55,208 nt of DNA, taken from contig JAMBEQ010000185.1 of assembly GCA_024506175.1 (NCBI GenBank), positions 1-55,208 on the forward strand. The letters run 5' to 3'. A program made the translations under genes and the position numbers. The notes beneath the pieces are model-generated. The model did no database searches and was not told the DNA's origin. It worked only from the letters and a program-made list of their open reading frames with translations. This DNA comes from Methylocystis sp. GTDB lineage: Bacteria; Pseudomonadota; Alphaproteobacteria; Rhizobiales; Beijerinckiaceae. This document shows, piece by piece, positions 39,034 through 50,738 of this stretch; the first letter of the stretch is position 1; the number at the start of each line of letters is the position of its first letter.

Positions 39034-40116
39034 ATGGATCGGGACACGATGGGCGACCTGGCCGAATCCGCCCCTCTCCAGGACAGCGCCGCCGGGATTT
39101 CCGGCAGCGCGCGCCGGGCGAGGGAGAGCGCCGAAGCCAAGATAATTGCCAAGCGCGCCTTTGTGGTGACCCAGGGCAAACACCGCTTTTTTTCTCTGGT
39201 TTTACCGAGCGATCTTCTCGCTCAGACCTGCACGGTCGAGCCGCGCGCCGAGAATCCGATCGACGGTTTTCAGCGCCTCTTGGACGAGCGCCGCGCCAAA
39301 TCCATCGCCCGCTATATCGACTCGGGCTTCGGCTCGGTGCCGGGCGCGGTGGTGCTTTCCGCTCAAACGCGCGCACGTCTCGGCTTTGACGAGGACGAAG
39401 GCGCGCTCTCCTTCCGCAAAGACCCTCGAGCCTTTCTCATCATCGACGGCCAGCACCGCGTTTTCGGCTTCAAGCTGGCGAAATCCTCGGTCAATGTGCC
39501 GGTCGTTATTTACGACAAGCTGACGCGCGCGCAGGAATGCCGGCTGTTCATGGACATCAACACCAAGCAGCGCCCCGTCCCCAACGAACTCCTGCTCGAC
39601 ATCCGCCGCCTCTCTCAGATCGAGACCGAGACGGAAGCGTTGATGCACAATGTCTTCGATCTGTTCCATTCGTGCGAGGACTCGGCGCTCGCGGGCTTCC
39701 TCAGCCCCGCCGAACGCAAGAAGGGGACGATCTCCCGTGTGACTTTCAACTCGGGGTTGCGCTCTATCAAACATGCCTTCGTCGGCGCGCCGGCAGAGGA
39801 GGTCTACGCGGTTCTCAACGCCTACCTCCGCGCCTGCCGCCATGGCTTGGGCCTGCACGCAATCGACGAGAACATCGCCAATCCGGCGCTGTTCAAGGCG
39901 CTGATGTTGCTGTTCACCAATGTCGCCGAGCGCGTCGCCGACCGGCACAAAGGCAAATACAGCGTGCGCAATTTCGAGGAGGTGCTGATCCCCTTGTTCC
40001 GGCGTCTGAAGAAGAGCGACCTGCCGCGCGCCGGGGCGACCCATATCGTCCTGCATGAGCACTACAGCAAGACGTTAAGCGCCGGCTTCATGCTCAAGCA
40101 ATGGCTCTTCACCTGA
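39034..40116 (+). CDS. Orphan DGQHR-domain protein (DndB-like)
   Basis: A 360-residue protein of the DGQHR family. The diagnostic motif IIDGQHRVFGFKLAK places DGQHR at 138-142, and the second conserved stretch is LFMDINTKQRPVP (171-183). The family includes DndB, which represses and modulates the phosphorothioate DNA modification genes, and related proteins in other mobile or defence loci. No dndA/C/D/E, restriction or nuclease gene is present nearby, so its role here is unknown. The start is uncertain (ATG at 39034 or at 39049). It converges with and overlaps a glycosyltransferase remnant by 42 bp. Confidence 0.82.
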   Translation: MDRDTMGDLAESAPLQDSAAGISGSARRARESAEAKIIAKRAFVVTQGKHRFFSLVLPSDLLAQTCTVEPRAENPIDGFQRLLDERRAKSIARYIDSGFGSVPGAVVLSAQTRARLGFDEDEGALSFRKDPRAFLIIDGQHRVFGFKLAKSSVNVPVVIYDKLTRAQECRLFMDINTKQRPVPNELLLDIRRLSQIETETEALMHNVFDLFHSCEDSALAGFLSPAERKKGTISRVTFNSGLRSIKHAFVGAPAEEVYAVLNAYLRACRHGLGLHAIDENIANPALFKALMLLFTNVAERVADRHKGKYSVRNFEEVLIPLFRRLKKSDLPRAGATHIVLHEHYSKTLSAGFMLKQWLFT

Positions 40117-42079: not shown

Positions 42080-42496
42080 TCACCAGGACGCGCCATCTCC
42101 TGCGTCGGCTGTCTCTATCAAAGTGACGATCTCCCCGCGCGCCGTCGCGATGGCGCCCAGCAACGCCGCGCAGCGCAAGTCGGCCTGCGGATCGCCGCCA
42201 CGCAGCGCGGTTTCATAGGCTTCGGCGGCGTCGCCGAGCCGGAAGGCGCCGACGGCCCGGGCCGAACCTTTTAGCGTGTGGGCGAGATCGGCCCGGGACG
42301 CCCCATCGCCTGGCCGGGGGGGCTCGGAAAGACGCGCCGCGAATTTTGCCGCCTGACGGTCGAAGATCGTCAGCAATTCGAGCGCCAGAGCGCCATCCCC
42401 GAGCGTCTGCCGGGAGAGATGGGCAAGATCGACGGCCGGAGCGGCAGCTGCGGACTCATCTTCTGCATGAGTCCGCCCGCCACAGAAATCGTGCAT
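42080..42496 (-). CDS. Stand-alone Hpt histidine phosphotransfer protein
   Basis: A 138-residue protein with one Hpt four-helix module (about 23-135). The phospho-accepting histidine is H73 in ADLAHTLKGSARAVGAF, the standard Hpt motif. It lacks kinase or receiver domains, so it would pass phosphate between a hybrid kinase and a response regulator. It is divergent from the giant coiled-coil gene across 281 bp and shares its upstream region. Partner proteins are not in the window. Confidence 0.88.
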   Translation of the reverse strand: MHDFCGGRTHAEDESAAAAPAVDLAHLSRQTLGDGALALELLTIFDRQAAKFAARLSEPPRPGDGASRADLAHTLKGSARAVGAFRLGDAAEAYETALRGGDPQADLRCAALLGAIATARGEIVTLIETADAGDGASW

Positions 42497-42714: not shown

Positions 42715-42777
42715 GCGTCGTCGGCGGCGGCGCTGCAAGGGGGCGGCGCGCGTCGTCGCCGCTCGGAGAAAGTGACG

Positions 42778-45700
42778 ATGTCGAAATCGGGCAAGATTCA
42801 GGATGCGGCCTCCGCCGCTTTGTCCGCAATCGAGGAGGCGCTCGATCTGGGCGCGCCTCCGGCGGCGGAAAGCGGCGCAAAGAAGACGGAATCGACCGTC
42901 GCGGCCGATCCCCTGCCCCCTTCCGCCGCCGGCGTCGCGGATATCGCCCAGCCCGTCGCGCGCAAGACCGAGCGGAGCGAAACGCCGAAACCCGCCGCCG
43001 TCATGCCCGCCATCCCGCCGGCGAACGACGACCGCCGCACGGTCGGCGAAATGCGCGCAGCGCTGCAAATCCAACCCAACCGCGGCATATTGGCGATAAC
43101 CTTCGCCTCGATCGCGCTCTGGGCGGCCAGCTGGACGCTATATGTTTTCTTTCACCGGGGGGAAATCCTCGAAGCCGACGGCTCGTTTTTCGCGCCTAAG
43201 CCCCTTCTGACTATCGCGGCCCTTCTCGGCCCGACGCTTTTCCTCTTCATTACAGGCCTCATGGCGCGCCGTGCGCATGAAATGCGGCTTATCGCCAATT
43301 CGATGACGGAAGTCGCGATCCGCCTTATCGAACCTGAGACGATCGCCACCGAGCAAGTCGTCTCGTTATCCCAGGCGATCCGCCGGGAGGCCGCTTCCAT
43401 GGGCGACGGCATCGAGCGCGCGCTCGCCCGCGCCGGCGAGCTCGAAGTGATCGTGCGAACGGAGGTGACCAATCTCGAGCGCTCATATTCCGAAAACGAG
43501 CGCCGCCTTCGTCAGCTCATCGATGAATTGACGCGTGAGCGCGAGGCTATCGTCGTCAACGCCGACAACGCGCGCACCGCCCTGCTCGGCGCCCGTGACG
43601 CGCTTTCCCAGGAGCTCGCCGCGACATCGGCGCATCTCGCCGAAACGGTGAGCGAAGCGGGAACCCGCGTCACCTCTTCACTCGGCTCGAAAGGCGAGGA
43701 AATCAAGCTCGCCCTGGAAAAGGCAGGCGACAATTTCGAGACGACGCTCGCCTCCCATGGCGAGAGGGTTGTCGGCGTTCTGGCCGAGACAGGCGACATC
43801 GTCGCCGACAAAATCGCAGACGCAAGCGACGACGTGAGCCGTCGCTTCGCGGCGGGGGTAGACGAAGTCGGTGCCAAGCTGCAAACGACGAGCGAGGCGC
43901 TGGCCGTCGATTTCGGCGTGCGCGGCTCAGCGATTCTCGAACGGTTCGATGAGCTCGGCGCGCATTTCGCGAATTCGATCGGCGAACAGAGCGACCGGCT
44001 GATCATCCGCCTTGCCGAGACCGGCAGGATCATCGAGGAAACCATTGGCGCGCAAGGCGGCGCCCTCGACAGATCGCTCGCGCAGACGACCGACCGGCTG
44101 GCCACGAGCGTCTCTCAGCAAATCACGCAGGCAAAATCCACTTTCGAGGGCGCCGAGGACCGCCTCATCGCTCTCATGGAGGAGACGAACGCCAAGGCTC
44201 ATGAGACGATCGAGGCGCGCGGCAAGGCCCTGCATGACTCCCTCGTCCATAGCCTCAGTGACACGGCGGCGACGCTCTCGGAACATGCAGAGGGGCTGCA
44301 GCAACGCTTCGTGGGCGCGGCAAGCGACGCAGTCTCGGCGCTCGCCGCCCATAGCGACCGCATCAACGAGACTTTGGTGGAGAAGCTCCAGACTTTCGAA
44401 CGCAGCGTGCTCGTGCGGGGCGAGAACATGATCGAGCGCGTCGCACAGCATGGCGGCCAGCTCGAGGCGACCCTCGCCGAGCGGCTCACTGCCTTCGAGG
44501 ACGCGGTTGTCCGGAGCAGCGCCGACGCCGCGATGCGCGTCGGGGAACAAGGCGACCGAGTTAGCGTCGCGTTGAATGAAGGCCTTGCGGCCTTCGAGGA
44601 CTCGTTCACCCGCCGCGGGGAGGAAATCGTCGCGCGCGTCGCCGAGCGTTCGGTGGAAGCTTCAACAGCGCTCACGGAACGGCTTGCAGCCTTTGAGGAG
44701 GTCTTTTCTACTCGCGGCGAGGACGTCACGGCGCGCGTCGCGGAACATGGCGAGCGTGCGGCAGGCCTGCTAGCCTCGCGCCTCGAAGCCTTCGAGAGCG
44801 CCGTTTCTCACGGCGCGGAAGACATGGCCGCCCGTGTCGCCGAACACACCGGGCATGTGGCCGCCGCCTTGGCCGATCGCCTTACCGAGTTCGAGGCCTC
44901 CGTCACCCAACGAAGCGACGAAGCCGCAATCCGCCTTTCGGAAAATGGCGCGCGCGCCACTGCAACGATTTCCGAGCAGATCTCGAATTTCGAGACGGCC
45001 GTCGCGCTCTATGGCGAAGAGCTGACGGCGCGCGTCGCCGAGCATGGGGAGCGCTCGAGCACGACGCTGGCGGAGCAACTCGCGGCGTTCCGCGAGGCGA
45101 TGGAGACACAGACCGAAACGGTCGCAGCCCGCGTCGCCGACCATGGCGATCGAGCGCTCGGCAACCTCTCTTTGGGGCTGGCGGCCTTCGAGGATGCTAT
45201 CCTCCAGCGCAGCGAAGCGATCGCCGCCCGGCTGGCGGAGCATGGCGGCCGAGCCTCTGCTCAGGTCGCCGAGCAGATCGCTTCTTTCGAAGCCGCCGTC
45301 GTTCAGAGCGCCGATTTGGTTACCGCCCGGCTCACCCAACAGGGCGGCCGCGCCTCGGCTGAAGTCGCCCACCAGATCGCCGCGCTCGAGGCCACCATCG
45401 CCCAGGGGACCGACGCCATCGCCGTCCGCCTGGCCGAACAGAGCGGCCGCGCCTCTGCCGATATCGCCGAACAGATCGCGGCGTTTGAAACGAGCGTCCT
45501 CGGCGTCGAGAGCGTCGCGGCCCGCTTGGCTGAACAGGGCGGCCGCGCCTCGGCGGAGGTCGCCGAACAGATAACGGCCTTTGAAGCCGCCGTCGCCCGC
45601 ACCGGCGCCGACCTCGCGGCGCGCGTCGCCGAGCATGGCGAACGCGCAACGACGGTTCTTGCCGACCGCCTGGCCGACTTCGAAGAGAGCGTCTCCCGCC

Positions 45701-48700
45701 GAACCGCGGATATCTCGACGCTCGTCGCTCAGCATGGAGAGGGCGTCACCGAAGAAATCACCCGCCAGCTCGCCACGCTGGAGGAAACTGTCGCGCGCAG
45801 CCGGGAAGAGATCTCGGGGCTGGCCGCGGCTCATGGCGAACGCGCTTCGTCGGAGCTCTCCCGCCAGATCGCCACGCTCGAAGAAACGGTGACGCGCAGC
45901 AGCGAGCAACTGGCGGCCCTGGTGTCGTCGCATGGGGACCGCGCAACCAGCGTCATCGCGAAACAGATCGCCTCTTTCGAAGAAGCCGTCGCGCGCAAGA
46001 GCGAAGAGGCTGCGACGCGCGTCTCGGAGCAAGGCGACCGGGCGCTGAACAATCTCTCCCTCGGCCTTGCTTCGCTGGAAGACGCGATCCTGCGGCAAAG
46101 CGAAAACGTGACCGCAACTGTCGCCCAGCACAGCGATCAAGCCGCGTCCGCGATCAACGACGGCCTCGCCGCCTTTGCGGAAGCAGTGACGCGTCTGAGC
46201 GGCGAGGCGGCTGCCCGCGTCGCGGCGAAAAGCGAGGAAGTCAGCGCGGCCTTCGCGCAAGGCCTCGCCGGCTTCGATGAAACCTTCTCGCGCCAGGGTG
46301 AGATTGCCCAGCGCGTTCTCGATCAGACGGCCTCGAGCGGTGAGACTCTCACTGCTCAGTTGCAAGCCTTCGAGAGCGCCGTGCAACAGGCAAGCGCCGA
46401 GACGGCAAAGCGCCTTGCGGAGGAAAGCGCACGTATCGCCGGCGCGGTGACGACCGGGCTCGGGTCCTTTGAAGATTCGGTGACGCGCCATAGCGAGAGC
46501 GTCTCCGAGCTGGTCTCCGAACATGCGAAGCGGGTCGACGAGTTGCTCATGGAGCGCATGATCGCGCTGGAAAACGCGGGGCTGCTCGTCGCCCAGACGA
46601 TGGAGGAAACGCGAGAGCGCGCGCTCCAGGCCTTCGAGGCCCATGGCGCGGCGATGCGCGAGAATTTGCAGCGTAGCGTCGAGGACGCCGCAACTGCGCT
46701 CGCGCAAAACTCCGAAACCCTGCACGATCGTTTCACGACGACGGCGAGCGACGCCGTCCTTGCAATCGCCACCCAAGGAGAACGCCTCAACGAATTGCTC
46801 GCGGGCCATGGCGAACGCATCGTTTCGACTCTCGGCGAATTCGAAACCACGTTGCAACGCGACGGCGGCGCTTTGGCGGAGCGCGTCGCCGAGCAGGCTA
46901 CGCGTTTGAGCCAGGATGTCGCCGAGCGCCTGGCGACAGTCGACGAAGTGATTGGCGGCCGCGGCGGAGAGCTCGTCGAGAATCTGACCGCGCGGGCCGA
47001 AGACACCGACGCCCGGATCGGCGCGCAGGCCGAACGTTTCGTCGCGACCGTAGACGATCGCCTCGAGGCGATCGACCAGGCGATCGCCACCCAAGGTGGC
47101 GCGCTCGTGCAGCGCATCGCCGCGCAAACCGAGGATTTCGCCTCGCGCATCAGCGACAATTCCAGCTTCTTCGCGCAGGAAATCGACGCGCGCCTGAGTG
47201 CGCTCGACGACGCCGTCTCGTTGCGCGGCGGGGCGCTCGTCGAGCAGATCGCGGCGCGCGCCAACGAAATGACGGCGCGGCTCGGCGAGGCCTCGGCGCA
47301 AGTGGCGCAGGAGATCGACGCCAAAATAAGCGGGATCGACCAGGCTATCGCCACACAAGGCGACGCGCTCGTGCAGCGCATCGCTTCGCAGACCGAGGGG
47401 TTCGTCTCCCGCATCGGCGACAATTCCCGCGCCTTCGCGCAGGAGATCGATACGCGCCTGAGCGCTCTCGACGAAACGGTCTCGTTGCGCGGCGAGGCGC
47501 TCGTCGAGCAGATCGCGGCGCGCGCCGAAGAGATGACCGCGCGGCTGGATGAGACGTCGCAACAAATTGCGAAGGAAATCGACGCCAAAATGGGCGCGAT
47601 CGAACAGACGGTCGGCGGACAAAGCGACGCATTGGTGGGAACGCTCGACACTCGAACGGAAGCGCTCGCAGCGCGCATGGACGAGCGGTCACAGCAACTC
47701 TGCTCCACGTTGGACGGCAAGCTGGAAGCCATCGACCAGGCCGTCATCGCTCGGGGCGACGCCTTTATCGGCAAATTTGCCGAGCAAGCAGACCAGCTCA
47801 CGGCGCGCATCGGAGATAATTCGCGCCACTTCGCGCAGGAAATCGACGTGCGCCTCGAGACGATCGACGATGCCATTTCGGTGCGCGGCGGGAAGCTTGT
47901 CAGTGAACTGGACGCGACAACCGTCAACGCTTTCTCACGACTGAGCGAGCAGGTCGGCAAGCTCGCCGACGAGGTCAATTCCAAGCTCGGCGCCATCGAC
48001 AGCGCAATCGGCGAGAAAGGCGAGCAACTCGTCGAACGGCTTGGAGCGCGCGCAGACAACATCGCCGCTGTCATGTCGAACAAGATCGAATCCTTCGAGA
48101 ACGTCAGCGACGCCCGCACGCGGGAAGCGGTCCAGCGCATCGACGAGCTCGTCGGTAGCATGAACTCCGGATTTGGCGTCGGCGGACAGAAGCTCCAAGA
48201 GTCGCTCGCAAGCCACGCGGTCGAAATCGCCCGCGTGATGGGCGAAGGCGGCCGCGAGGTCGTCAAGGCGCTCGACGAAAAACTAAAGGACCTCGACTCG
48301 ACGCTCGTCACGCGGTCGACAACAATCGCCGAGACCATCTCCGCCAAGGCCGAGGAGATCAACGACACGCTCGGCGGCCGCGCGAAGGATCTCGCGGATA
48401 CGCTCGACGGCCGCATCGACCGGTTCGAGAGGAACGTCGTCGAAAGGCTCGGCGCGGTTTCCTCCGAGATCGACGAACGCGGCCGCGGCGTGATCGAATC
48501 GATCACCTCCCGTCTGCAGGATATCAACCATACCCTCGCCGAGGCGCGTCGCGAGCTCGACACCACCTTGCACGCGCGCACCGGCGATCTCGGCCTGGCG
48601 CTCACCCAGCGGGTTGGCGAGATCAGCGCGGCGCTCGACCAGCGCCTCACGCAGGTCCAAACCGCGCTCGACGAGCGTCTCGAACAGATCGAAACGACCT

Positions 48701-50340
48701 TCGGCGACCGCGGCAGCGAAGTCACAAAGGAACTCGCGAGCGTCGGCGAGCTTGTCGCCAAGACCATCGAGACGCGCGGCGCGGCAATCGTTCGGCACCT
48801 CGGCGACAAACGCGATGAGCTGACTCAGGCGATGGAACAGTCGACTTCCTCGCTGACCGAGGCGCTCGACGCCGGCGCACAGACCTCGATCGGCGCCCTC
48901 GTCGCGATGAACGACAAGATTCGCGCCGAACTGCCGTCGCTGCTCGACAAGCTCGCGCAGACCAACAGCTCGCTGCAGTCCATCATCGACAAGAGTGGCG
49001 GCAATCTCGTCAACCTCGAGCGCGAGCTCGGGGCGCGGGTCGGCGAGTTCCACGAGGCCGTCCGCGCGGTCTCCGTCCAGGTCCAGCAGATCAGCGAGGT
49101 CGCCGGCGGCACAGTCGGCAATGCGCATGAGATTATCGATACGCTCGGCGAACGCCATCAGGCGCTCGCGAAGAGCGCCGAGCAGCTCGCCCGAAGCCAG
49201 CAGGCGCTCGACTCCGCCTTCGACGCCCGCCAGCGCTCCCTCGAAAAGGTCGTCTCGCTCATCGACGACAAGCGAAGCGAGGTCGAGAATGTGATGGCGA
49301 CCTTCACGCAGAAAATGGAGGACACATTCCAGGCGATAGAAAGCCGCTCGAAAGAGGTCGGCGACGCGCTTACGGCCTCCACCGAGGCGACAGCCAATCT
49401 CGTCGGAGCGCGCTTCGCGCATATTCGCTCGGCGGCGGAGAGCCAGCGCTCCGAAACGGAACAGGCGCTGCGCGCTTCTTTCGGTCAGGCCAATCAGGAG
49501 ATCAACCGCCTGTTCTCCGAGGCGAATACGCGCTTCCAGACGACAGCCGAGGAAATCCGCGGCCTCTCGCGGGAAATTCACCGCGAGCTCGAGGAGACGC
49601 GCGAGGAAGTGCGGCGCGGCGCGGCTGAACTGCCGCGCGAGACGGCCGAGCAGGCGGCCGCGCTTCGCCGCGTGGTTGGCGACCAAGTGAAAGCCTTGAA
49701 CGAACTGACGGACATCGTCGCGCGCTCGGGGCGCGTCTATGACGTCGCCGAACAGGCTCCGCCCGCCGCCCGCCGGAGCTTCGAGCCGGCGCAGCAGGCC
49801 GAAACGCCCAAACCACGCCTGGCTCCGACCCCCGCTGCGGCCGCGGCTGCGGCCCCCACGCCTCGCTCGGCGCAACCGGCGCGGGATGCGCAAGGCGGCT
49901 GGCTGACGGATCTTCTCGCGCGCGCCTCGCGCGAGGACGCGCCCCAGAAGCCTCTACAGCCCGCCCCCGCCCCGGTGCGCTCGACGCGCCAGCAGAACCC
50001 CGGCGCGCTCGACAGCCTGACAGTAGACATCGCCCGCATGGTGGACAGCGGCGCCGTCGCGGAACTGTGGCGGCGTTATCAACGTGGGGAAAAGGGCGGT
50101 CTTTTCGGCAGACGTCTCTACACCGCCCAAGGTCATCAGACGTTCGAAGAAATCCGTCGCCGCTACAACGTAGATCCGGACTTCCGCGCCACCGTCGACC
50201 ATTATGTCCGGCACTTCGAGGAGCTTCTCGTCGAGACGAGCCGCGCCGATCGCGAAGGCGCCAAGGCGCTCGATCTGCTGACCGGAGACGCCGGCAAGGT
50301 CTACACCATGCTCGGCCACGCCGCCGGCCGGTTCGACTAA
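42778..50340 (+). CDS. Giant membrane-anchored coiled-coil repeat protein, GPR/RgsE-like
   Basis: A 2520-residue protein from the ATG at 42778 (ribosome site GGAG, 9 nt spacing). N-terminal Ala/Pro-rich cytoplasmic segment (1-100), two transmembrane helices (about 104-125 and 142-163) with a short periplasmic loop, then about 2150 residues of helical coiled coil facing the cytoplasm. Residues 553-1276 are 22 tandem 33-residue repeats (ARVAEHGERAxxxLAEQ style) and 1369-1764 are nine 44-residue repeats (RIGDNSRxFAQEID style), both multiples of 11 as in apolipoproteins. A Pro/Ala linker (about 2318-2409) leads to a C-terminal domain (2410-2520; ALDSLTVDIARMVDSG). Size, two helices near the N-terminus and apolipoprotein-like repeats match the Growth Pole Ring protein of Agrobacterium (RgsE in Sinorhizobium), which scaffolds polar growth. 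Function is inferred. Confidence 0.8.
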   Translation: MSKSGKIQDAASAALSAIEEALDLGAPPAAESGAKKTESTVAADPLPPSAAGVADIAQPVARKTERSETPKPAAVMPAIPPANDDRRTVGEMRAALQIQPNRGILAITFASIALWAASWTLYVFFHRGEILEADGSFFAPKPLLTIAALLGPTLFLFITGLMARRAHEMRLIANSMTEVAIRLIEPETIATEQVVSLSQAIRREAASMGDGIERALARAGELEVIVRTEVTNLERSYSENERRLRQLIDELTREREAIVVNADNARTALLGARDALSQELAATSAHLAETVSEAGTRVTSSLGSKGEEIKLALEKAGDNFETTLASHGERVVGVLAETGDIVADKIADASDDVSRRFAAGVDEVGAKLQTTSEALAVDFGVRGSAILERFDELGAHFANSIGEQSDRLIIRLAETGRIIEETIGAQGGALDRSLAQTTDRLATSVSQQITQAKSTFEGAEDRLIALMEETNAKAHETIEARGKALHDSLVHSLSDTAATLSEHAEGLQQRFVGAASDAVSALAAHSDRINETLVEKLQTFERSVLVRGENMIERVAQHGGQLEATLAERLTAFEDAVVRSSADAAMRVGEQGDRVSVALNEGLAAFEDSFTRRGEEIVARVAERSVEASTALTERLAAFEEVFSTRGEDVTARVAEHGERAAGLLASRLEAFESAVSHGAEDMAARVAEHTGHVAAALADRLTEFEASVTQRSDEAAIRLSENGARATATISEQISNFETAVALYGEELTARVAEHGERSSTTLAEQLAAFREAMETQTETVAARVADHGDRALGNLSLGLAAFEDAILQRSEAIAARLAEHGGRASAQVAEQIASFEAAVVQSADLVTARLTQQGGRASAEVAHQIAALEATIAQGTDAIAVRLAEQSGRASADIAEQIAAFETSVLGVESVAARLAEQGGRASAEVAEQITAFEAAVARTGADLAARVAEHGERATTVLADRLADFEESVSRRTADISTLVAQHGEGVTEEITRQLATLEETVARSREEISGLAAAHGERASSELSRQIATLEETVTRSSEQLAALVSSHGDRATSVIAKQIASFEEAVARKSEEAATRVSEQGDRALNNLSLGLASLEDAILRQSENVTATVAQHSDQAASAINDGLAAFAEAVTRLSGEAAARVAAKSEEVSAAFAQGLAGFDETFSRQGEIAQRVLDQTASSGETLTAQLQAFESAVQQASAETAKRLAEESARIAGAVTTGLGSFEDSVTRHSESVSELVSEHAKRVDELLMERMIALENAGLLVAQTMEETRERALQAFEAHGAAMRENLQRSVEDAATALAQNSETLHDRFTTTASDAVLAIATQGERLNELLAGHGERIVSTLGEFETTLQRDGGALAERVAEQATRLSQDVAERLATVDEVIGGRGGELVENLTARAEDTDARIGAQAERFVATVDDRLEAIDQAIATQGGALVQRIAAQTEDFASRISDNSSFFAQEIDARLSALDDAVSLRGGALVEQIAARANEMTARLGEASAQVAQEIDAKISGIDQAIATQGDALVQRIASQTEGFVSRIGDNSRAFAQEIDTRLSALDETVSLRGEALVEQIAARAEEMTARLDETSQQIAKEIDAKMGAIEQTVGGQSDALVGTLDTRTEALAARMDERSQQLCSTLDGKLEAIDQAVIARGDAFIGKFAEQADQLTARIGDNSRHFAQEIDVRLETIDDAISVRGGKLVSELDATTVNAFSRLSEQVGKLADEVNSKLGAIDSAIGEKGEQLVERLGARADNIAAVMSNKIESFENVSDARTREAVQRIDELVGSMNSGFGVGGQKLQESLASHAVEIARVMGEGGREVVKALDEKLKDLDSTLVTRSTTIAETISAKAEEINDTLGGRAKDLADTLDGRIDRFERNVVERLGAVSSEIDERGRGVIESITSRLQDINHTLAEARRELDTTLHARTGDLGLALTQRVGEISAALDQRLTQVQTALDERLEQIETTFGDRGSEVTKELASVGELVAKTIETRGAAIVRHLGDKRDELTQAMEQSTSSLTEALDAGAQTSIGALVAMNDKIRAELPSLLDKLAQTNSSLQSIIDKSGGNLVNLERELGARVGEFHEAVRAVSVQVQQISEVAGGTVGNAHEIIDTLGERHQALAKSAEQLARSQQALDSAFDARQRSLEKVVSLIDDKRSEVENVMATFTQKMEDTFQAIESRSKEVGDALTASTEATANLVGARFAHIRSAAESQRSETEQALRASFGQANQEINRLFSEANTRFQTTAEEIRGLSREIHRELEETREEVRRGAAELPRETAEQAAALRRVVGDQVKALNELTDIVARSGRVYDVAEQAPPAARRSFEPAQQAETPKPRLAPTPAAAAAAAPTPRSAQPARDAQGGWLTDLLARASREDAPQKPLQPAPAPVRSTRQQNPGALDSLTVDIARMVDSGAVAELWRRYQRGEKGGLFGRRLYTAQGHQTFEEIRRRYNVDPDFRATVDHYVRHFEELLVETSRADREGAKALDLLTGDAGKVYTMLGHAAGRFD
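44434..46605 (+). repeat. 22 tandem 99-bp coding repeats (33 residues each)
   Basis: In-phase units begin at 44434, 44533, 44632, 44731 and so on. Units 11 (45424) and 20 (46312) are one codon short (96 bp). Consensus begins ARVAEHGERAS and continues LAEQIAAFEEAV with 33-residue spacing; copies diverge, with identities clearest in units 8-13. The repeats are protein-level, not satellite DNA. Confidence 0.9.
46882..48069 (+). repeat. Nine tandem 132-bp coding repeats (44 residues each)
   Basis: Units begin at 46882, 47014, 47146, 47278, 47410, 47542, 47674, 47806 and 47938, exactly 132 bp apart. Alternate units resemble each other (47146 with 47410; 47014 with 47278), indicating past duplication of an 88-residue pair. 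Consensus includes RIGDNSRxFAQEID, LSALDDAVSLRG and ALVEQIAARA. Confidence 0.9.
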
Positions 50341-50504: not shown

Positions 50505-50738
50505 ATGAACCAGAAGCCGATCAATTACCAGCATCTCTCCACGCTGATCGCCGTCGCGATCCTCGTCGGGACGGAGCTCGTTGGCGCCTCCTGGGCGGCC
50601 GGCTGGGCGCTGGGCGGCCTGTTCCAGCTCGACCCCATGATCAGCCACGCGCTCGAGGTAATTTTTGCGCTCCTCGGCTTCGTCGGCCTTTATTTCTTCA
50701 TGAAGACCGCGATCCGCAACGAGCCGATCCGCGGCTGA
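50505..50738 (+). CDS. Small two-helix membrane protein of unknown function
   Basis: A 77-residue protein with two predicted transmembrane helices (about 10-40, rich in Gly/Ala/Trp, and about 46-70). It has a charged C-terminal end (KTAIRNEPIRG). No family is recognised. It has its own gap (164 bp) after the giant gene's terminator and lies 100 bp before the OpgG-like gene on the same strand. The hydrophobic pattern, start ATG and codon use support a real gene. Confidence 0.65.
   Translation: MNQKPINYQHLSTLIAVAILVGTELVGASWAAGWALGGLFQLDPMISHALEVIFALLGFVGLYFFMKTAIRNEPIRG

Follow-up and report, generated by a model that had tools for sequence, protein, structure and literature searches.

The closest described relatives of the protein treated here are GPR of Agrobacterium tumefaciens (Atu1348; published length 2115 aa, PMC8262873) and its homologue RgsE of Sinorhizobium meliloti (SMc00190; published length 2089 aa, PMC7327166), for which a six-focus ring at the growth pole is described and whose loss is reported to disturb cell shape and polar growth in both studied hosts (PMC8262873, PMC7327166). 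TolQ, RgsA and RgsS are given as partners of RgsE, RgsE homologues are described from every family of the Rhizobiales and, more distantly related, from two other orders, and Rgs and MreB homologues have been suggested to be mutually exclusive (PMC7327166). Here, we analyzed a 55,208-nucleotide stretch of DNA from Methylocystis sp. (assembly GCA_024506175.1, contig JAMBEQ010000185.1, positions 1 to 55,208), hereafter called the window, in which a single uninterrupted reading frame encodes a protein of 2520 residues. An earlier inspection of the letters alone (the sequence-only reading) had described this protein as GPR/RgsE-like, and the comparisons presented below raise it to a GPR/RgsE orthologue. 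The window protein was thus correctly identified and belongs to an already known family, to which the comparative results are an addition. We consider it highly probable that the gene, gpr, comes from an MreB-less type II methanotroph and encodes an anchored orthologue with a long hendecad (11-residue) coiled-coil rod, a linker and a C-terminal domain, which by analogy would form a ring at the growing pole.

The assignment to this family is carried by the two non-repetitive ends of the protein, whose comparison with GPR/RgsE had been proposed as a check and gave clear matches. Identities in the N-terminal region were 48% (101 aa) with the protein of L094, a metagenome-assembled genome titled Agrobacterium tumefaciens, and 39% (171 aa) with that of L129 (S. 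meliloti 4H41); at the C-terminus, the corresponding identities were 52% (126 aa) and 50% (144 aa). The L129 frame spans 2094 aa, the C-terminal match in S. meliloti CP090106.1 (titled plasmid pSymB) falls within a 6270-bp coding sequence of 2089 aa labelled "kinesin", equal in length to published RgsE, and the third listed in-frame ATG of the A. arsenijevicii gene (L097) gives 2115 aa, as published for GPR. Moreover, the N-terminal membrane region is matched as well in all 40 relatives picked by their C-terminal match (full genes, mostly one per family); at least two hydrophobic peaks were seen in each of them except L060, which has one. A scan of named genomes, taken as the best 80 of at least 495 confirmed stretches, returned titles of Rhizobiaceae, or only "Rhizobiales" or "Proteobacteria", L094 and L129 being among them. 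The C-terminal 140 residues are matched in 38 of the 39 genomes of the genus and in 190 of the 199 sampled genomes of the order, which bears out the conserved look first ascribed to this domain, and the single match in the source genome fits the one gene per genome of GPR/RgsE. Every GPR/RgsE sequence trait tested was found, namely, the two-helix N-terminus, both homologous ends, a rod matching PF01442, a proline-rich linker and a single gene.

The reading frame opens with an ATG at 42778 and is also in frame with a GTG located 6 nt further 5'; the ATG is favoured because a GGAG sequence (42765-42768) lies nine bases before it. The two transmembrane helices proposed initially were recovered as hydrophobic segments in 19-residue hydropathy windows. 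The longest proline-free run covers 1866 residues, or ~280 nm as one straight helix (0.15 nm per residue). We propose that the N-terminal hairpin anchors the protein in the inner membrane, that the proline-free stretch forms a very long cytoplasmic hendecad coiled-coil rod reaching this length if fully helical and extended, and that the flexible proline-rich linker bears a small helical C-terminal domain. By extension from published work on the orthologues, the rod would be oligomeric, and the protein would, like Agrobacterium GPR, assemble as a ring at the growth pole, where its recruiting activity may help place cell-wall synthesis.

No MreB match was obtained at 1e-60 in the source genome (97% complete). 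Three PF06723 matches above the Pfam cut-off were present, the best of 62 bits in a 691-aa frame; genuine MreB genes of the order reach 367-485 bits, with 255 bits for a single fragment, and we infer that the weak matches are Hsp70/FtsA-type relatives. A pmoA/amoA-type gene occurs in 31 of the 39 genomes of the genus, including the source genome, which makes the host very probably a type II methanotroph. Unipolar growth had been predicted from the presence of a homologue as such, which is no predictor by itself because the family also occurs in MreB-bearing genomes; the prediction nevertheless remains likely for the source organism because its genome lacks MreB. Within the order, MreB was found in 23 of 199 genomes, 22 of which also carry the GPR C-terminal domain (the exception, G128, is 88% complete), and loci from four MreB-positive genomes (L074, L082, L211 and L212) match at both ends. 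Outside the order, the domain was found in 87 of 237 alphaproteobacterial genomes, 79 of these 87 having MreB as matched by hand between two listings that leave 7 of 240 MreB-less genomes unnamed. In a phylum sample of 299 genomes, whose share from outside the class is not shown, all 65 matches fell within the same class. This co-occurrence runs counter to the mutual exclusivity suggested in print, at least for RgsE, and comparison across relatives hints at a family that predates polar growth. GPR is a leading candidate for the replacement of MreB as elongation scaffold in this large bacterial order. Three genomes at least 99% complete (G036 of family f37, G068 and G135 of f23) showed neither MreB at 1e-60 nor the GPR C-terminal domain. 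Two C-terminal matches per genome were seen in G658 (L209 and L210) and G527, both outside the order.

The C-terminal domain itself matched no Pfam family in the window member and no consistent one over 40 members, and searches for a solved structural relative gave best values of only E = 0.23 and 0.34. AlphaFold2 modelled the last 150 residues, with modest confidence, as largely helical plus a small hairpin (mean predicted local distance difference test score, pLDDT, of 65; block pLDDT of 76-85 in the last 60 residues). A divergent copy of this domain ends three proteins of 830-870 aa from family f115 (L194 and L195 by profile match, L196 by alignment), and profile-profile comparison of the f115 and GPR domains with hhalign gave 96.2% and E = 2e-9. 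L194 and L195 possess an N-terminal hydrophobic pair; the N-terminal profile detected no GPR homology in this region at E 1e-3, and no Hpt neighbour was found at either locus. Of 19 additional loci carrying the C-terminal domain, 18 have at least two hydrophobic peaks (one in L213), and 8 match the N-terminal profile at E 1e-3 or better, the other 11, including L194 and L195, falling below. Two mini forms of family f74 (L207 and L208; 330 and 368 aa) combine two hydrophobic segments and a GPR-type C-terminal domain with almost no rod.

The size of the f115 proteins recalls Caulobacter TipN (882 aa), which has been termed analogous to GPR (PMC13170164), GPR being stated elsewhere to be similar to TipN (PMC8546619). 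TipN is described as a polytopic new-pole marker with a large cytoplasmic coiled coil (PMC4460556, PMC13170164). Ectopic poles are reported both from overproduced TipN (PMC5347347) and from a C-terminal GFP fusion of GPR (PMC8262873); TipN positioning is reported to require Tol-Pal (PMC7391070), and RgsE to interact with TolQ in a two-hybrid test (PMC7327166). The GPR-TipN idea is thus already in print, and the shared C-terminal domain appears to be added evidence, gathered through the TipN-sized proteins of f115, a family that may not be Caulobacteraceae. Comparison of f115 with plasmid DNA and proteins gave no TipN-like match. These proteins, together with the many MreB-positive genomes that carry the domain inside and outside the order, speak for a general alphaproteobacterial polarity or envelope scaffold, a TipN-like new-pole landmark whose use in polar growth would have been added later in MreB-less lineages. 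We consider this explanation unlikely for the window protein, given the published phenotypes of GPR and RgsE loss and a source genome without MreB to drive lateral growth. A wider and tentative proposal is that GPR, RgsE and Caulobacter TipN could form one alphaproteobacterial family of ~330 to nearly 3000 aa (two-helix anchor, variable hendecad/coiled-coil rod, C-terminal domain), in which the rod would have roughly doubled, mostly by hendecads, only in the MreB-loss lineages of the order, turning a polarity landmark into an elongation scaffold, with the Hpt pairing, widespread in the order and present in some related lineages, wiring the poles to a phosphorelay. We lean somewhat against it, its odds being lowered because the TipN-like proteins come without N-terminal homology.

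Protein length was compared with MreB status over the 177 of 190 C-terminal matches of the order that lie in frames of at least 700 aa, measured stop-to-stop, the 13 shorter frames, probably contig-end cuts or broken frames, being dropped. Lengths ranged from 815 to 1498 aa (median 1106) in 20 MreB-positive genomes, and the median was 1832 aa in 157 MreB-negative genomes. None of the 24 sampled families of the order whose median exceeds 1500 aa has MreB (Mann-Whitney test at family level without phylogenetic correction, 9 versus 38 families, p = 0.006). However, the median does not exceed 1500 aa in 14 of the 38 MreB-negative families, and proteins longer than 1500 aa make up 12 of the 87 from outside the order; long GPR and MreB loss are associated, not locked together. 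A tree built from the conserved ends, weakly supported at some points, puts most short forms near the chosen root, with one short group nested.

Changes in rod length were counted from 31 close pairs. Of 52 indels in the rod, 35 were exact multiples of 11 residues, and of 118 indels in the two terminal parts only 1 was. With indels shorter than 5 residues set aside, the figures were 35 of 50 and 1 of 21. The rod thus seems to change length mostly by whole hendecads, with a suggestion of selection for coil phase, and the repeat blocks would be a fast-changing part of the protein, in which such changes would hold the coil in register.

The repeat lengths of the window protein, 33 and 44 residues, are themselves multiples of 11. 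Over the whole protein, self-similarity was best at lag 33 (z = 18.6, compared with a maximum of 4.1 across 200 whole-protein shuffles), with z = 22 at this lag for residues 541-1280, and reached z = 21 at lag 88 and z = 16 at lag 44 for residues 1421-1800. A 33-residue consensus, written from the block itself, found 22 places with at least 12 identities (maximum of 10 elsewhere), of which 21 are contiguous (520 to 1210). The count of 22 repeats given by the sequence-only reading therefore stands, but not their strict phase, with one unit apart at 1368 and two one-residue register slips between unit starts 883/915 and 1146/1178. Its nine 44-residue repeats were recovered with a 44-residue consensus at nine places (1377-1772), though 88 is the stronger period. 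At the DNA level, Tandem Repeats Finder (TRF) detected a 264-bp unit in part of this block (2.1 copies, 82% matches), and this level of matching suggests a recent expansion. Strongly hydrophobic residues recur with a period of 3.64-3.67 in both blocks, near the hendecad value of 11/3 = 3.667. Because the two blocks share one hydrophobic period, the different supercoil geometry formerly read into their different repeat lengths is not implied. Residues 166-330 and 1991-2290, outside the repeat blocks, deviate with a period of 3.60-3.63. In 41 of 47 family members, self-similarity peaks at a lag divisible by 11, 22 being the commonest (24 of 47). Lag 33 or 66 leads in the window protein, in L047, L048, L049 and L051 of the same genus and in L069 and L064 of other families; the leading lag is 51 in L050, also of this genus.

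The amphipathic character of these repeats lends itself to a second explanation, in which they would act as an apolipoprotein-like lipid organiser that lies on, or sorts, polar membrane lipid. The rod matches PF01442 with 309 bits against a cut-off of 90, over 16 stretches, and such stretches were found in all four proteins scanned (10 in L129, 8 in L094 and 11 in L047); this function has been put forward as a hypothesis for Agrobacterium GPR (PMC8262873). For the window protein, we judge it quite improbable, since its hydrophobic seam is narrow, occupying 6 of 33 positions (3, 14, 18, 21, 25 and 32) in one block and 10 of 44 in the other, and 1866 rod residues are unbroken by proline. Plasma apolipoproteins have wide hydrophobic faces, suited to lipid, and prolines about every 22 residues. 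The capacity of the rod to lengthen and re-pattern mostly by whole hendecads would also be more in keeping with a coiled-coil rod than with lipid binding. An unrelated giant coiled coil (SMC, kinesin-like or Zorya ZorA-like), GPR-like by composition only, has next to no probability and we reject it, as the weak NCBIfam matches to ZorA, SpiroCoCo and similar that speak for it (seven in all) fall below curated cut-offs and within residues 1498-2289 of the rod, and the homology of both ends to GPR/RgsE refutes such a relationship whatever the "kinesin" label of the S. meliloti orthologue.

Several points weigh against reading the protein as a hendecad coiled-coil rod devoted to polar growth. Repeat-rich coiled coils can inflate a PF01442 score, and the match alone proves little, while the narrow seam argues for a coiled-coil rod over lipid binding and is not proof of a coiled coil. 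In residues 761-980, a period of 29/8 outscores 11/3, perhaps due to the register slip there. The indel pattern comes from pairs of which 30 of 31 are Rhizobiaceae, the sole pair with the window protein giving 3 multiples of 11 out of 5; the 17 of 52 rod indels that are not multiples comprise 11 sums of 11s and 7s and 6 that are no such sums; and unequal recombination between repeat units would yield multiples of 11 without selection for phase. Finally, the family is found alongside MreB, and some lineages may therefore use it for something other than polar elongation.

The gpr gene has a conserved divergent neighbour, an Hpt-domain gene located 281 bp upstream. Using a profile built by iteration on flanking frames, the same divergent arrangement was found in 32 of the 40 relatives within the order (in one more, L055, the strand of the Hpt gene is reversed), in all but one of 76 named Rhizobiaceae loci (80 were fetched, and 4 with an extracted frame below 1500 aa were left out) and in 5 of the 19 additional loci, namely L211 and L212, which belong to the order, and 3 of the 17 from elsewhere. 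The histidine of the HxLKG motif is retained in 101 of 114 cases, and S. meliloti CP090106.1 has an annotated Hpt gene immediately upstream of its gpr orthologue. A literature search combining Hpt with GPR/RgsE, and using guessed locus-tag numbers for the neighbour, found no Hpt-GPR link. Only PMC9022086 held both terms, and its passages on a shape-controlling hybrid kinase of Rhizobium etli report no Hpt gene in the vicinity and draw no link between Hpt and GPR. One may speculate that the gpr-adjacent Hpt protein is a partner of this kinase. More generally, the Hpt partner might regulate pole growth, and its conserved gene offers a concrete handle on this possible regulation.

Other neighbours in the window were sought near gpr in 140 loci holding at most ~10 kb on either side, and matches were obtained in three loci, all of the window's genus, for the binding protein, in one locus each for DusA and GT4, and in none for MdoG and the 77-aa gene. 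A conserved GPR gene cluster beyond Hpt was rejected on these counts. The 77-aa frame (50505-50738, + strand) lies between gpr and mdoG and has no Pfam family. Further away, 39034-40116 (+ strand) encodes a DGQHR-domain protein (TIGR03187, E = 6e-35; PF14072 DndB, E = 4e-13) of a kind linked to DNA modification. Three antisense open frames within gpr (44770-47622, 950 aa; 46356-48809, 817 aa; 48283-49893, 536 aa; all on the - strand) are probably by-products of the repeats and of high G+C (0.79 at third codon positions, GC3), with no sign of being genes. Plasmid DNA used to place the host of the window gave short matches confined to conserved genes. The coordinates of the features are collected in Table 1.

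Table 1. Features of the gpr locus, with positions in the window and residues of the 2520-aa protein.
Feature	Residues	Position	Strand	Basis
Hpt-domain gene, 138 aa, HTLKG motif, divergent to gpr		42080..42496	-	PF01627 E = 4e-9; conserved divergent neighbour
gpr/rgsE orthologue, 2520 aa		42778..50340	+	Open frame; both ends homologous to Agrobacterium/S. meliloti proteins; PF01442
N-terminal helix motif, IQDAASAALSAIEEALDL	7-24	42796..42849	+	N-terminal alignment
PANDDRR motif ahead of first transmembrane helix	81-87	43018..43038	+	Kept in N-terminal alignment
Predicted transmembrane helix 1	103-125	43084..43152	+	Hydropathy
Predicted transmembrane helix 2	137-164	43186..43269	+	Hydropathy
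Conserved juxtamembrane helix, ..SMTEVAIRLIEPE..QAIRRE..MGDGIERALARAGELE..	164-230	43267..43467	+	Alignment; 48% identity/101 aa to A. tumefaciens protein
33-residue hendecad block, 21 contiguous units	520-1211	44335..46410	+	Autocorrelation; unit scan
44/88-residue hendecad block, nine 44-residue units	1377-1772	46906..48093	+	Autocorrelation; TRF 264-bp array; unit scan
Hendecad rod without longer repeat	1771-1990	48088..48747	+	Top lag 11 in sliding windows starting 1761-1926; hydrophobic period 3.667
Distal rod, mixed heptad/hendecad signal	1991-2290	48748..49647	+	Lags 14, 7, 25, 18 weakly favoured; hydrophobic period 3.60-3.63
Proline-rich linker	2286-2410	49633..50007	+	Holds 17 of the 35 prolines of the protein
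GGWLTDLL (W..DLL) motif in linker		49894..49917	+	Found again in many, not all, relatives
Conserved C-terminal domain, no Pfam family	2411-2520	50008..50337	+	140-aa query match in 190/199 genomes of the order

Compared with known systems, the window protein resembles the apolipoprotein A1/A4/E family in the profile match of its helical repeats, and differs from it in being membrane-anchored, in exceeding 2000 residues, in the narrow seam and in the proline-free rod. TipN of Caulobacter crescentus has about one third of its length, and the TipN-sized f115 proteins share its C-terminal domain without detected N-terminal homology. RgsE shows the same GPR-type anatomy, C-terminus and adjacent Hpt gene, with another rod length and other repeat units. 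A polar ring of six foci is described for GPR and RgsE. Relative to GPR, the window protein is ~400 residues longer, its units are of 33 and 44/88 residues, the top lag of the Agrobacterium proteins L091, L094 and L097 being 22, and its proline-rich region lies at 2286-2410 instead of 1890-2000 (PMC8262873). It shares with GPR the N-terminal hydrophobic helix pair, the juxtamembrane helix, the long PF01442-matching rod, the proline-rich linker, the homologous C-terminal domain and the divergent Hpt gene upstream.

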